A stretch of DNA of 64,000 bases from Catalinimonas alkaloidigena (GTDB lineage Bacteria; Bacteroidota; Bacteroidia; Cytophagales; Flexibacteraceae): positions 372,001 through 436,000 of the forward strand of contig NZ_FNFO01000001.1 in assembly GCF_900100765.1 (NCBI RefSeq), written 5' to 3'. The notes beneath the pieces are model-generated. The model saw only the letters and a program-made list of their open reading frames with translations. It was not told the DNA's origin and searched no databases. Below are positions 20,015-25,254 of this stretch, piece by piece; positions within the stretch are counted from its first letter, which is position 1, and every line of letters begins with the position of its first letter. Both the position numbers and the translations under genes were made by a program.

Positions 20015-21334
20015 CTAACTCACTGCTTTGGCGGGTTGCGGCTTTTTTTCGTCCGGAAGCGGTGCCCCTTTCACGGGATGGCGTCGCCAGTAGTTCGCCA
20101 GGATGGAACCGGAGATGTTCATCCAGGGACTGAACACCGCCGCGGCCAGGCCGACGGTGCCGAGTTTGCCCATCGCCCCGGCCAAGCCGGAGGCCATGCC
20201 ACCGTTTTGCAATCCCACTTCCAGCGCCATTGAGCGGGCTGAGTTTCGGTCCAGCCCCAGGGCGCGGCTCAGCCAGTACCCCAGCACGTACCCGGCGGCG
20301 TTGTGCAAGACCGCCGCCAGAAAGAGGATGAAGCCCACCTGCAAGAGGTTTTCGCGACCGGCGGCCGTAGTAACCGTCGTGAAATAGACAATGCCGAACA
20401 TCGAGAGATAAGGCATCCACCGATCGAGCTGCGGCAGACGTTGGGTCAGGTAATGGTAACCGCCCCCCACCGCCACTGCACCGGCAAAGAAGCCCAGAAT
20501 TTCGACTGATTGCAAAACCGCCGCGGGCAGATGCGCCTGCAGCCATGCCCAAGTGCCCATGGGAAGCAGGATGAGCCAGACCAGACAGGCCGCCGTGATA
20601 ATCAGCACCCGGCGTTCTCCTTGTCGGGAAGCGGTTTTGAGGTAATCGTGCAACAGGGCCGCCCCGATGGGAACGAGCACGATTTTGACGATCTGCATCA
20701 TCATGTCCAGCAAACGCACCTCGACGAGCGTGCCCGCCAGCAGTTTCATCATCAGCGGCGTCATCAGCGGAGCCGCCAGCGTTGCCATTGCCGTGACGGT
20801 CACCGACAACACCAGATTGGCTCGTGCCAGGTAAACCATCACGTTGGACGCCAGTCCGCTGGAGCACGCCCCGATCAGCACCACCCCGGCGGCAATTTCC
20901 GGCTCGAACTGAAACACCTTCGTCAGCAGGAAACCGACCACCGGCATGATCGAAAACTGACAGAGCAGTCCTACCAGCACGCCGCGCCCGGTCGTCGCCA
21001 GCCCGGCAAAATCGCGGAGGCTCATCTGGATGCCCATTCCGAACATGACCAGTTGGACGACCAGCAAAATCAGCCACGGGTTGCGCAGGTCGAAGTCGCC
21101 CCAGTGCAAAAAAGCCGCCGGGTAGAGCATGCCCGCCACCACGGCCGTGATGATCCAGGCGGTGTACTGATAGCCCTGCAACGCCGGAATCGCTCCGAGC
21201 CCGACCGACAGGCCGACAGACAACGCCACCGCCGCCGGTTGCCACAGCGCAGGCTGAGCCATGAACAACCCCACTACCAACAGCAGCAATGCCGCAGCGG
21301 CAAGACCCAGGCAGATTTTCCGGAACAGGATCAT
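20015..21334 (-). CDS. BASS family (bile acid:sodium symporter-like) transporter
   Basis: This is a 439-aa inner membrane protein. After an N-terminal pair of hydrophobic segments (about 5-60) comes the ten-helix BASS core. It includes 'MFGMGIQMSLRDFAGLATTGRGVLVGLLCQF'-type segments and the crossover motif 'LIGACSSGLASNVMVYLARAN'. BASS proteins import organic anions with sodium; known substrates include bile acids, pyruvate, pantoate and 2-oxo acids. It is translationally coupled to the racemase-family gene upstream (ATGA at 21331-21334) and is last in the RLP cluster, so it probably imports the carboxylate which that cluster degrades. The C-terminus is a short cytoplasmic tail rich in charged residues. 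Confidence 0.88.
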   Translation of the reverse strand: MILFRKICLGLAAAALLLLVVGLFMAQPALWQPAAVALSVGLSVGLGAIPALQGYQYTAWIITAVVAGMLYPAAFLHWGDFDLRNPWLILLVVQLVMFGMGIQMSLRDFAGLATTGRGVLVGLLCQFSIMPVVGFLLTKVFQFEPEIAAGVVLIGACSSGLASNVMVYLARANLVLSVTVTAMATLAAPLMTPLMMKLLAGTLVEVRLLDMMMQIVKIVLVPIGAALLHDYLKTASRQGERRVLIITAACLVWLILLPMGTWAWLQAHLPAAVLQSVEILGFFAGAVAVGGGYHYLTQRLPQLDRWMPYLSMFGIVYFTTVTTAAGRENLLQVGFILFLAAVLHNAAGYVLGYWLSRALGLDRNSARSMALEVGLQNGGMASGLAGAMGKLGTVGLAAAVFSPWMNISGSILANYWRRHPVKGAPLPDEKKPQPAKAVS

Positions 21335-21990
21335 GAGAGCACCGTCGCCAGGTGTTTGATCGCCTGCGGCGGACTGGCCAGAATCGGTACGCGCTTGTCG
21401 GCTTCGGCAAGCGTGTCGACGACCCGTGCCATGGACGCCTGCGCCAGCAGAATGACGTCCACTTCCTGCGCCAGTTCCCGCAGGGCATCGCCTACCATTT
21501 GGTCGTGTTTCGCCGCGTCGCCGCTCATCAGCGCCTCGAAGGCCCCTTCACAAAGGCGGGAAGTGAGTTCAATCGCTTTACCGGCCACGGCAGCCCGCCG
21601 CCGCACCAGATCGCTGGTCGGCTCCAGGGTGGTCGGCAGGGTTGCGATGACGCCGATTTTGCTACCGGTCTGTACCGCCAGATCGACCATGGGCTGGTCG
21701 ACGCGCAGCACCGGAACGCCGGAAAGACCCGCCGCCGTTTCGACTGCCGCCCCGATGGACGAGCAGGTGACCAGAATCTGATCGGCTCCGGCCGCTTCGG
21801 CCGAACCGACGTAGTCGACCACGCGCCGGGCGGTCGCCGCCGTAAGCGTGCCCTTCGCGATTACATCTTTGATCAGGCTGTCGTCTACGATGTTGAAGAC
21901 CTTGACGTCGGGCAACCATTCCTGGCAGAGCTGTTGAAATACCGGAACCAGCGTCGCGGATGTATGAATCAAACCTAGGGTTTTGGACAT
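21331..21990 (-). CDS. Asp/Glu/hydantoin racemase family protein with one conserved catalytic cysteine
   Basis: The ATG at 21990 gives 219 aa and starts 'MSKTLGLIHTSATLVPVFQQL', the normal family start; the open frame extends further but without features. The first catalytic cysteine is in 'ILVTCSSIGAAVE'. The second, normally in a C-[AG]-G-M segment, is replaced: the site reads 'LLAQASMARVV'. Two cysteines are needed for racemisation, so this may be an isomerase, a decarboxylase or a lyase of the same fold (compare arylmalonate decarboxylase, which also keeps only one). It lies 47 bases after the DinB-fold gene and overlaps the BASS gene by four bases, so it belongs to the RLP cluster. Confidence 0.82.
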   Translation of the reverse strand: MSKTLGLIHTSATLVPVFQQLCQEWLPDVKVFNIVDDSLIKDVIAKGTLTAATARRVVDYVGSAEAAGADQILVTCSSIGAAVETAAGLSGVPVLRVDQPMVDLAVQTGSKIGVIATLPTTLEPTSDLVRRRAAVAGKAIELTSRLCEGAFEALMSGDAAKHDQMVGDALRELAQEVDVILLAQASMARVVDTLAEADKRVPILASPPQAIKHLATVLS

Positions 21991-22037
21991 GATGGAATAA
22001 CGAGTTAGTAAGAAGGTTAAAGATGAATGGGTGGGTC

Positions 22038-22562
22038 TCAATCAGGTAGCTTGAGTCCAAAGTCGAAGCGCTCGTGGACGATGCGTTTCAGCAGCCCAAG
22101 CTGTCCGCAGTGCCACATGGTGTGGCTGATATTCCAGTTGAGGGCTTCGAACTTGGTTTTTGCAATGGGATGGGGCACCTGCGTAGGTTCCAGGGGGCGT
22201 TGCAGGTCGTCGGGCGTTAGCCCGTTGATGACGCGAAGCGACGTTTGCTCGACGAGTTGAAGCTGCGTCTGCAACGTTTCCGGCTTGGTTTTGCCTAGGG
22301 ACTGTTGCGGCGGGGCGCTGGTAAAAAGAGCAGCGTAGTCGCGCAACGGAACCTGCTGGTGCACGCCCGCAGGGTGTCCCGTGATGGTGATGATCGAATG
22401 GAAGAAAATGCTCATGATCAGATGCCCCGCCTGCCAGGTCACGCTGGTGTCCACCACGGACGGAATCTGGTCCCAGGTTTCGTACGGAATGCTGTGGAGC
22501 AGCGTGTTGGTCCAGGCATAAGCCTCTTCCGTTTGCTTGGCAAGTACTTCGACTTCGTTCAT
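22038..22562 (-). CDS. DinB superfamily protein
   Basis: I choose the ATG at 22562, giving 174 aa ('MNEVEVLAKQTEEAYAWTN'). The four-helix DinB fold is shown by its metal-binding histidines His47 ('WQAGHLIMS'), His147 and His151 ('NISHTMWHCGQLGLLKR'). DinB-fold proteins include metal-dependent thiol transferases and isomerases such as mycothiol-dependent maleylpyruvate isomerase. The general annotation 'DNA damage inducible' says little about function. It sits inside the RLP cluster, 35 bases after the kinase gene, so an enzymatic step in that pathway is possible; this is inference. Confidence 0.82.
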   Translation of the reverse strand: MNEVEVLAKQTEEAYAWTNTLLHSIPYETWDQIPSVVDTSVTWQAGHLIMSIFFHSIITITGHPAGVHQQVPLRDYAALFTSAPPQQSLGKTKPETLQTQLQLVEQTSLRVINGLTPDDLQRPLEPTQVPHPIAKTKFEALNWNISHTMWHCGQLGLLKRIVHERFDFGLKLPD

Positions 22563-22597
22563 GGCACTTCTGGAATACGATCTATCAGAATAATGAC

Positions 22598-24010
22598 TTA
22601 TGAATGTGTAGGGTGCAGCGCCGGTTGTTTGCCCTCCAGCACCGTTCCGAAGTAGTCTTCCCGGCCGACCTGACCGCCTTTGAAGTTGACTTCCCGTCCG
22701 TCGACCGGCGAGTTGGGCGCGTACGCACGACACAGCGGAGCGCCGGGCGAAAGCGGCGCGATCATTTCGACGGCTTCGATGCCTAGCGCGCGGGCCGCAA
22801 AGCTGGACGTATCGCCCCCGGCCACCACCAGGCGTTGCACTCCGGTTCGGGCAACCACGTTCCGCAGGATGGTGCCGAGCGCGGTCCCGTATAACTGGGC
22901 GGTGCGTTCGCGAAGGGCACTGGCGTCGAGGCCCTGTTGGGCAAAGATTTCGTTGGTCGCGGAGGCGTTTTCGCCGCCGTTCGTATGCAGAATCACATGG
23001 CGTCCGTCGTTGACCTGTTCAGTGATAGTCGATGCATAACCGTCCAGAAGGGCTGCATCGTCGGGACGGGCGGCCAGCGCAGCAGTGTCCAGCACCACTT
23101 CCCGAAACCCCTGCGACAAGGCCCAGGCGATCTGCCCGGACGTGACCGGCGAGCAGCTTCCCGACGCGACCAGCAACGGCTCTGCCCGGCCGGGATCGGC
23201 CCATGCGGTCTGCGGTTGAAGTTGTTCGGCCTGTTGCCAGTGGGCACCCAACGCCATTTCGATGCCGGAAGAGCCAACCGAAAACAGCGGTGCTTGCGGT
23301 GAAGCGTAGCGGTCAATCAGACGACCGATGCCCGCCAGTTGAGACGCGTACATGGCATCGAACAAGACCACCTCAGCCCCTTGTTGCATCAGCTGGTCGA
23401 GTGCTGATCGGGCTTCTGGTTCGGGTAGCGCGATGTGTAACAGGTCAAAAAGGCCAATGCATTTGTCGGTCTGTCGGCCCAGGTGCAGCCGCAGGTCACT
23501 TTCGTCGGCGGGTGTAACCGGATGCTTACGCATCGACGGATGGCGGTCGAGCCGGTGAATGGTACCCGTACTGCCGATGCCCATGCGGGCAAACAGGTTG
23601 CCAAACGCACAATACCGACCCAGCGGCGGTGCGGCTACCAGCAGCGGAACAAACGGAGCCTGAAAGACGTCCGCGCCCACGTCGATGGCTCGCCCGATAC
23701 TGCCGATGGTCGGCGAGGAGTCAAACGTGGAGCATACTTTATAATGCACGTGCGGAGCCCCCAACTGCCGCAACTGCCTGAACGCCGGACGCAACGTCGC
23801 TTCCATTTGGGCAGGGGCCAGTGAGCGAGTCATGCCCGCCACCCCGATGGCCCGCAGGCCGTCGTAGCGCGCCAGTTGCTCGGGCGTGGGCGGCTCAATG
23901 AAGAGCGCGGTTTTCGCTCCGGCCCGGCTCAGAAACTCCAATGCGTCGGTCGAACCGGTGAAGTCGTCGCCGTAAAAGGCCAGCAGTAAATTGTGGGGCC
24001 GTTCGCTCAT
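22598..24010 (-). CDS. four-carbon acid sugar kinase family (DUF1537; OiaK/OtnK-like)
   Basis: This is a 470-aa cytoplasmic kinase of the two-domain DUF1537 family. The N-terminal sugar-acid-binding domain has 'FYGDDFTGSTDALEF' (GDDFTGSTD at 14-22). The C-terminal nucleotide-binding domain has 'LLVASGSCSPVTSGQI' and the loop 'RLVVAGGDTSSFAARALG'. Known members phosphorylate four-carbon sugar acids (OtnK, DtnK) or 3-oxo-isoapionate (OiaK) with ATP. Its start overlaps the stop of the RLP gene by four bases (ATGA, 24007-24010), so the two proteins are made together. Pairing with an RLP points to the 3-oxo-isoapionate-type pathway, but substrate identity is inference. Confidence 0.88.
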   Translation of the reverse strand: MSERPHNLLLAFYGDDFTGSTDALEFLSRAGAKTALFIEPPTPEQLARYDGLRAIGVAGMTRSLAPAQMEATLRPAFRQLRQLGAPHVHYKVCSTFDSSPTIGSIGRAIDVGADVFQAPFVPLLVAAPPLGRYCAFGNLFARMGIGSTGTIHRLDRHPSMRKHPVTPADESDLRLHLGRQTDKCIGLFDLLHIALPEPEARSALDQLMQQGAEVVLFDAMYASQLAGIGRLIDRYASPQAPLFSVGSSGIEMALGAHWQQAEQLQPQTAWADPGRAEPLLVASGSCSPVTSGQIAWALSQGFREVVLDTAALAARPDDAALLDGYASTITEQVNDGRHVILHTNGGENASATNEIFAQQGLDASALRERTAQLYGTALGTILRNVVARTGVQRLVVAGGDTSSFAARALGIEAVEMIAPLSPGAPLCRAYAPNSPVDGREVNFKGGQVGREDYFGTVLEGKQPALHPTHS

Positions 24011-25254
24011 TTCTTCTTTCCGAATTTGGCGACAGATTTGGCGAAAACGGGCGAGCGTTTCGCCGCTTCTTCAACCGAAAGCCCCTCTACGGCGGCTTCC
24101 CACGCATCGCGCAGCGCCGCTACGCCTCCGGCGGGTCCATCGGGATGGGCCATGATGCCGCCACCCGCCATGTATAAGAGATCAGTAGTTTGCGTACGGC
24201 GGTAGGTTTCCGGAGCCTGCCCGCCCCATTGACCCGACGAAACCACGGGCAGAATGGAGTAGCCGCCGAGGAATGGTTGCAGACCCGCCTGGATGGAGCG
24301 CACGACCGAGTCGTCCGATTCCCAGAATTTATTCTGGATGCCGTTCACGTGAATTTGATCGACCCCGGCCAGTCGCCAGAGCTTCTGGTAGGCCGGAAAC
24401 TCGATGCCCAGCAGCGGATGCCGGTTCAGCATGCCCCAGCCGTTCCGGTGGCCGTGGATGGCCAGTTGTCCCTGGTCGCAGATTTTCTTGACGCCCGCAA
24501 GCCCCACGCTGTTCAGGCTGATCATGGCGCAGGTGCCGCCCGATGCCACAATCTTTTCGTAGCGCCGCAACATCGAATCGATTTCGTCGCTGAGGTTGAA
24601 AGCGTACATCACCTTCTTTCCCGTGCGGTCGGCGTGGTCGTTAATCACACGCATGATGGTGTCGACCCGCGCTTCGAACGGCGAGTTGGCCGACGCCGAC
24701 AGCAGTTCGTCGTCTTTAATAAAGTCGATGCCCGCTTCGGCCAGCGTTTTCACGAGGTCGGCGGTTTGAGCAGGCGTCATGCCGATGCTGGGTTTGATGA
24801 TCGTCCCGATCAGCGGCCGGTTCTGCACGTCGGTCAGCCGACGACACCCCTCGATGCCGAACTGCGGTCCCCGAAAATGATCGGCGAACGAGCGTGGCAC
24901 CTCCAGGTCCATCAGCTTCAGGCCGGTAAATTGCGTGATTTCGTACAAATTGCCCTGTAACGTGGACACCATCGTCGGCAGGTTGTAGCCGAAGTTCTCG
25001 ATCGACCAGGAAACCTCGACGTAGGCCTGATGGTAGGTACCGGTTTCGGAGGTCGCGCCGGGAATGGCCGGGGTGGTCACGGTCGCGACGGGCGTAATCG
25101 CTTCGACGCGGGCGGCAAAGCGTTCTTTCAGTTCCTCGGTTTCGCCGGGCACGGCCACGAACGTACCGGACGATTGCTCGCCGGCCAGTACCTGGGCGGC
25201 CTTCTCGACGGCGTACGGCGTTTCAATAAAATAACGGGCGGTAATTCTTTCCAT
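24007..25254 (-). CDS. RuBisCO-like protein (form IV), candidate 3-oxo-isoapionate-4-phosphate decarboxylase or transcarboxylase type
   Basis: This 415-aa protein has the full RuBisCO large-subunit fold: an N-terminal domain with 'AGEQSSGTF' and 'LQGNLYEIT', then a TIM barrel. Lys154 ('GTIIKPSIG') and the metal-site group Lys180-Asp181-Asp182-Glu183 ('AGIDFIKDDELLS') are kept, as are 'IHGHRNG', a loop-6 lysine (Lys309) and the phosphate-binding glycines 'YMAGGGIMAHPDGPAGG'. The second lysine of the KPK motif is serine (Ser156), so CO2 fixation is unlikely. Known RLPs act in methionine salvage (MtnW) or on 3-oxo-isoapionate-4-phosphate (OiaX, OiaT). The coupled DUF1537 kinase favours the second type. 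It is the first gene of the cluster; no clear promoter is visible upstream. Confidence 0.88.
   Translation of the reverse strand: MERITARYFIETPYAVEKAAQVLAGEQSSGTFVAVPGETEELKERFAARVEAITPVATVTTPAIPGATSETGTYHQAYVEVSWSIENFGYNLPTMVSTLQGNLYEITQFTGLKLMDLEVPRSFADHFRGPQFGIEGCRRLTDVQNRPLIGTIIKPSIGMTPAQTADLVKTLAEAGIDFIKDDELLSASANSPFEARVDTIMRVINDHADRTGKKVMYAFNLSDEIDSMLRRYEKIVASGGTCAMISLNSVGLAGVKKICDQGQLAIHGHRNGWGMLNRHPLLGIEFPAYQKLWRLAGVDQIHVNGIQNKFWESDDSVVRSIQAGLQPFLGGYSILPVVSSGQWGGQAPETYRRTQTTDLLYMAGGGIMAHPDGPAGGVAALRDAWEAAVEGLSVEEAAKRSPVFAKSVAKFGKKK

Follow-up and report, generated by a model that had tools for sequence, protein, structure and literature searches.

The stretch of DNA analyzed here, hereafter the window, comprises 64,000 nucleotides of Catalinimonas alkaloidigena (Bacteroidota, Cytophagales; contig NZ_FNFO01000001.1, positions 372,001 to 436,000), and it carries a compact cluster of five minus-strand genes, encoding a RuBisCO-like protein (RLP), a DUF1537 kinase, a DinB_2 protein, a racemase-fold protein, and a BASS transporter (Table 1). 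All five open reading frames lie where a first-pass annotation, made from the letters alone, had placed them, and each family is supported by Pfam: the RLP matches RuBisCO_large together with its N domain, and the kinase has the two-domain architecture of DUF1537 (PF07005 and PF17042). The two overlaps of 4 bases (24007 to 24010 and 21331 to 21334) and the two gaps, of 35 and 47 bases, were likewise confirmed. Four of these genes, for the RLP, the kinase, the racemase-fold protein, and the transporter, are a real and widespread catabolic operon, a new variant of the RLP/DUF1537 theme. From comparative analysis, the operon probably serves the cytosolic breakdown of L-aceric acid from the pectic polysaccharide rhamnogalacturonan II (RG-II).

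Table 1. Genes of the minus-strand cluster, with positions counted from the first base of the window
Product	Position	Strand	Pfam match	Assignment
RuBisCO-like protein (RLP), 415 aa	24007-25254	-	PF00016, 215 bits	Proposed decarboxylase of a phosphorylated aceric acid ketose
DUF1537 (SBD_N/NBD_C) acid-sugar kinase, OiaK-like, 470 aa	22598-24010	-	PF07005, 189 bits; PF17042, 120 bits	
DinB_2 protein, 174 aa	22038-22562	-	PF12867, 45 bits	Judged a hitchhiker
Asp/Glu-racemase-fold protein (Asp_Glu_race), 219 aa, C76	21331-21990	-	PF01177, 81 bits	Putative aldose-ketose isomerase
SBF/BASS transporter, 439 aa	20015-21334	-	PF01758, 109 bits	Proposed inner-membrane importer of aceric acid

We searched for the RLP in 11 genomes of the same family and, since it was found in only one of them, that of the window, in 390 genomes of the order. 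There it occurs in 23 genomes from 14 genera, in 19 of them at 69% identity or more and in 4 at 51 to 55%. A broad scan with one genome per species gave the best 80 loci; the true number is larger, so the locus counts below are lower bounds. After removal of duplicates there were at least 93 close-clade loci, 83 of which had enough downstream sequence for the gene order to be judged. Among the matches listed, the order RLP, kinase, racemase-fold gene, BASS gene is seen in 76 of these 83 complete non-redundant loci, while in 5 others, from Dyadobacter and a relative, RLP and kinase genes are followed by an inverted pair of racemase-fold and BASS genes. Flectobacillus longus is an exception: its kinase gene is on the same contig but about 80 kb distant. 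The coupling of RLP and kinase proposed in the first-pass annotation was thus borne out in the relatives, where the kinase follows the RLP in nearly every locus. The linkage of the four genes, with BASS conserved as the fourth, is far beyond chance. The carriers belong to the Bacteroidota (Cytophagales, Sphingobacteriales, Chitinophagales, and Flavobacteriales), the Balneolota (Fodinibius), and the Verrucomicrobiota (of Opitutales, Pelagicoccus, and Akkermansia type). In many soil and water bacteria the operon stands beside pectin-digesting genes, and in Rufibacter tibetensis it is found on a mobilizable plasmid, with a pectinesterase gene after it.

The best NCBIfam model for the RLP is OiaX (NF042437), with 507.4 bits over the full length and under the cut-off of 700; RLPs of Bacteroidota apionate clusters likewise fall below this cut-off, at 450 to 469 bits. 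The best model for the kinase is OiaK (NF042436), with 441.7 bits, again under a cut-off of 700. In the D-apionate pathway (Carter et al. 2018, cited in PMC6302742), OiaK is a 3-oxo-isoapionate kinase of the DUF1537 family and OiaX, an RLP, is the 3-oxo-isoapionate 4-phosphate decarboxylase; RLPs acting on 3-oxo-isoapionate 4-phosphate are described in the same source (PMC6302742). The operon resembles the OiaX/OiaK system in its two enzyme families, in the order of the RLP and kinase genes, in the RuBisCO catalytic residues, and in its best NCBIfam models. It differs in scoring below both cut-offs of 700 (507 and 442 bits), in being without ApnL and ApnO, and in being coupled to a racemase-fold protein, a BASS transporter, and a GH127 enzyme of the BT1003 type. 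The transporter itself meets the SBF Pfam model, and its best NCBIfam matches, PanS (NF047939; 196.7 bits, cut-off 400) and bass, are both below cut-off; a branched hydroxy acid would be a suitable cargo for a relative of the pantoate transporter PanS.

Phylogenetic analysis of 110 rows places all RLPs accompanied by the racemase-fold gene in one clade (SH-aLRT 88), which is sister to the proteins named OiaX by NCBI on plasmids of Rhizobium and Salipiger (98), with the RLPs of the Bacteroidota apionate-type clusters next. Because the tree was made by a quick method, has long branches, and is midpoint rooted, this sister relation is only moderately sure. The equivalents of RuBisCO K175, K201, D203, E204, H294, R295, H327, K334, S379, G403, and G404 are invariant in 89 rows of the clade, and the active-site residues of the window's RLP are, in its own numbering, K154, K180, D182, E183, H269, R270, H302, K309, and S340. 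The metal site is therefore intact, as first described, and a working Mg2+/carbamyl-lysine enediolate center is to be expected. The active-site positions separating the clade from OiaX-type RLPs amount to six weak ones and give no clear substrate signature. The AlphaFold2 model of the RLP fits PDB entry 3nwr best (Z 50.5). Other RLP-kinase pairs, without ApnO or a racemase-fold gene, were seen on plasmids of Rhizobium etli, Bradyrhizobium elkanii, and Haloarcula (L129, L130, and L131); they are linked to SDR dehydrogenases, to TRAP, KDG, or ABC transporters, and to LysR or IclR regulators and represent further uncharacterized RLP/DUF1537 pathways.

Around the operon, the recurring families are GH127, GH106, GH78 or rhamnosidase-like, GH2, GH141, BT_1020-like, SASA esterase, DUF6298, DUF3826, DUF5703, and SusC/SusD. 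GH127 is the commonest of the RG-II-type enzymes: among the matches listed, 44 of 93 loci have it within about 10 kb, and in 25 it is the gene immediately upstream, on the same strand. The best PDB match of the GH127 protein used as query is 5mqo, which we take to be BT1003, at 826 bits, the next GH127 structure reaching 396, and 47 of the 49 adjacent proteins of this GH127 cluster that were compared, including the one encoded in the window genome, are 47 to 59% identical to BT1003. BT1003 is the aceric acid hydrolase of the RG-II degradome of Bacteroides thetaiotaomicron (PMC10850190; PMC5698469). Its close homologues thus adjoin the operon in many genomes, although BT1003 itself is a glycosidase that frees the sugar and stands outside the proposed cytosolic pathway. 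As a GH127 gene (47 to 50% identity to BT1003) and a GH78 gene precede the operon in Verrucomicrobiota too, the linkage is not limited to one lineage.

The window genome has the operon by itself on contig C1 and an RG-II-type locus on contig C10 (146067 to 203956; L140 to L142). This locus encodes a BT_1020-like protein, GH2, GH106, two SusCD pairs, sigma and anti-sigma factors, DUF5703, a SASA esterase, and a BT1003-type GH127, families that sit beside the operon in other genomes. The GH127 protein is 58.5% identical to BT1003 over 662 aa, and it scores 900 bits with 5mqo against 411 for the next solved GH127. With a threshold of at least 795 bits against the query GH127, the BT1003-type enzyme is present in 19 of 19 operon-bearing genomes versus 27 of the 371 others (Fisher p 4.6e-20, uncorrected for kinship). 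The 27 genomes having the enzyme without the operon could hydrolyze aceric acid without using it or use it by another route. A Bacteroides control genome has the BT1020-like marker and no RuBisCO-family protein. In one genome, the BT1003-type gene (G246:C5:64760-66745; 52% identity to the query) has one in-frame TAG, from either pseudogenization or sequencing error.

L-Aceric acid is 3-C-carboxy-5-deoxy-L-xylose, a rare branched sugar acid that occurs in side chain B of the plant cell-wall polysaccharide RG-II. The comparisons above establish the conservation and order of the genes, the kinship to OiaX and OiaK, the intact RLP active site, the linkage to RG-II and BT1003-type GH127 genes, and the lack of ApnO; the substrate, the order of the steps, the isomerase role, and the final aldolase are our inference. 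Periplasmic RG-II enzymes, including the BT1003-type GH127, would free aceric acid, and the BASS protein would import it. The racemase-fold protein would then move the carbonyl from C1 to C2, giving HOCH2-CO-C(OH)(COOH)-CHOH-CH3. This ketose matches 3-oxo-isoapionate exactly, except that CHOH-CH3 takes the place of CH2OH. The OiaK-like kinase would phosphorylate its CH2OH group. OiaX converts HOOC-C(OH)(CH2OH)-CO-CH2OP to erythrulose 1-phosphate; in the same manner, the OiaX-like RLP would decarboxylate the β-keto acid to a 5-deoxypentulose 1-phosphate, from which one of the genome's general class II aldolases could produce dihydroxyacetone phosphate (DHAP) and acetaldehyde. A last step of the same type has been proposed in 5-deoxyadenosine salvage, with aldol cleavage of 5-deoxyribulose 1-phosphate to DHAP and acetaldehyde, although there the 5-deoxypentulose phosphate derives from nucleoside salvage (PMC6302742). 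The 3-oxo-tetronate pathway of OtnK and OtnC (Zhang et al. 2016, cited in PMC10971088) also has a DUF1537 kinase that phosphorylates a 3-oxo sugar acid, followed by a decarboxylation; its decarboxylase OtnC, however, has the class II aldolase fold and its substrate is an unbranched C4 acid, whereas the operon would use an RLP.

A PDB sequence search with the racemase-fold protein gave no match, so its structure was predicted with AlphaFold2. The model (pLDDT 95) resembles aspartate racemase 1jfl (Z 22.2, rmsd 2.3, 206 aligned residues). C76 is invariant, while the second cysteine site is an invariant AQASMA without Cys in 19 of 19 rows, and so the pair of catalytic cysteines of two-base PF01177 racemases is lacking; the protein is a one-cysteine member of the family, as first annotated. 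Distant relatives in other phyla retain C76 and the SM motif. A relative 38% identical to the window's protein is encoded on a Natronosalvus rutilus plasmid (L146, 2788 to 8648) together with a haloarchaeal RLP, a DUF1537 kinase, SDRs, and a VOC protein. Another, at 30% identity, is encoded on a Pantoea agglomerans plasmid (L149, 3655 to 8570) with OtnK, OtnC, and an isocitrate/isopropylmalate dehydrogenase-like gene; no OtnI-type isomerase is annotated in the Pantoea stretch examined, and the racemase-fold protein may replace OtnI in tetronate use there. The one-cysteine active site and the relatives linked to OtnK/OtnC or to RLP and kinase fit an enediol-type carbonyl shift, which is compatibility rather than proof.

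Several points weigh against the aceric acid pathway proposed here. About half of the loci, the window included, are without a GH127 gene within 10 kb. The BT1020-like RG-II marker co-occurs with the operon just as often (19 of 19 operon genomes); genome-level co-occurrence therefore reflects RG-II as a whole, we rejected it as proof of aceric acid, and adjacency and chemistry alone single out this sugar. We found no dedicated aldolase adjoining the operon, and the class II aldolases of the genome are elsewhere: one is a RhaD-SDR fusion, and another has two class II aldolase domains in tandem and is related to OtnC and FucA. This tandem protein of 429 aa is encoded on contig C6 (228002 to 229171; L150), about 16 kb from the apiose-isomerase-like gene, and is a possible aldolase for the last step. 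The isomerase role falls to the racemase-fold protein by elimination, no other enzyme being available for the isomerization; we know of no PF01177-fold member that performs aldose-ketose isomerization, and related racemase-fold genes also occur in loci unlike the RG-II ones.

Alternatively, the operon might degrade another RG-II acid, such as Kdo, Dha, or a derivative of a uronic acid, or some other sugar acid encountered in the same habitats, with an incidental link to the aceric acid hydrolase. The linkage to RG-II degradation in general and the loci without a nearby GH127 gene agree with this. We nevertheless consider it unlikely: the OiaX-type reaction suits a 2-hydroxy-3-oxo acid with a branched carbon chain, and RG-II has, to our knowledge, no C-branched acid other than aceric acid, as Kdo, Dha, and the hexuronates are unbranched at carbon.

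Apiose, which is also an RG-II sugar, could in principle supply 3-oxo-isoapionate to the OiaK/OiaX-like steps, with the racemase-fold protein standing in for ApnO or working after it. OiaX and OiaK are indeed the nearest relatives of the RLP and kinase, and NCBI-named OiaX forms the sister group of the RLP clade. Several observations speak against such a variant apionate pathway. In the four loci at 51 to 55% identity, RLP and kinase genes are followed by genes for an ApnO-type oxidoreductase resembling PGDH_C/KARI and for a D-apionate lactonase (340 bits with the ApnL model, below its cut-off of 750), while ApnL and ApnO are absent from the close-clade operon loci. PF16896, of the ApnO type, is present in 4 of 4 apionate-type genomes and in 1 of 19 operon genomes, and it is absent from that of the window, for which the apionate pathway was rejected on this account. 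Moreover, the oxidation carried out by ApnO would need an NAD site, which the racemase fold lacks. With the kinase/RLP chemistry in common and ApnO and ApnL missing, the front end of the pathway differs from that of the apionate clusters, and we regard the variant as improbable. The absence of the usual apiose partners noted in the first-pass annotation is thereby confirmed. Its proposal of a sugar-acid pathway that differs from the known apionate set, combining a BASS protein for import, a kinase akin to OiaK, an RLP akin to OiaX, and a racemase-fold protein with one cysteine, is supported as well.

Several loci also carry a separate gene set, which speaks against apiose as the operon's substrate. 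In Runella, Marinoscillum, Opitutales, and others, it encodes a fucose-isomerase-like protein, an FGGY kinase (named GlpK-like by NCBIfam), and a split transketolase; in the window genome, where the isomerase-like gene alone was tested for, it is present on contig C6 (79%). The set fits the route of D-apiose isomerase, apulose kinase, and transketolase reportedly described by Carter and colleagues in 2018. Apiose seems to be covered by this separate route, and two branched RG-II sugars would therefore have two neighboring cytosolic pathways.

The first-pass annotation had read all five genes plus gpsA as the pathway, with the DinB and racemase-like proteins isomerizing an intermediate. The tight packing in the window is in keeping with this, and as an observation the five-gene cluster stands. 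It is not a conserved unit, however, because in none of the other loci among the matches listed does a DinB gene lie between the kinase and racemase-fold genes, which are separated there by a median of 57 bases. Only the window genome has a DinB gene inside the operon, while the other four genes persist elsewhere, and this genome has 18 DinB_2 matches, including the one in the operon. DinB as a required part is refuted, and a lineage-specific accessory role is possible. For gpsA, no counterpart was found near the operon in the relatives' loci, and it was dropped as a partner. The six-gene pathway is thus very unlikely. A methionine-salvage module, with the RLP as the 2,3-diketo-5-methylthiopentyl-1-phosphate enolase MtnW, shares the RLP fold and is scarcely credible, as the two MtnW models give 175 and 135 bits (cut-offs 409 and 514) against 507 for OiaX, the phylogeny likewise does not make the RLP an MtnW, and the surroundings of the operon showed no further gene of methionine salvage.

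In the openly accessible literature, to which our search was confined, we found no described pathway for aceric acid breakdown, only structural and hydrolase papers. We tentatively suggest that the operon is the first L-aceric acid pathway, present in three phyla, with a new RLP substrate (a C6 branched β-keto acid phosphate), a new DUF1537 substrate, and an aldose-ketose isomerase of the racemase fold. Few plant polysaccharides are as complex as RG-II; the enzymes that hydrolyze it are known, and the four-gene hypothesis makes the fate of the freed aceric acid directly testable. If true, it would add a further physiological role of RuBisCO-like proteins in sugar catabolism and give names to genes now annotated as "aspartate/glutamate racemase family," "four-carbon acid sugar kinase," and "ribulose-bisphosphate carboxylase large subunit family." It could also explain the use of the sugar by some RG-II degraders and not by others.

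In Pedobacter and Mucilaginibacter loci (L051, L052, L054, L056, L057, L060, L065, and L084), a conserved and unexplained gene set precedes the operon. It consists of a gene with an extracellular solute-binding-protein fold, a Gfo/Idh oxidoreductase, a MaoC-like dehydratase, an MFS-type transporter, and sometimes CoA transferases.

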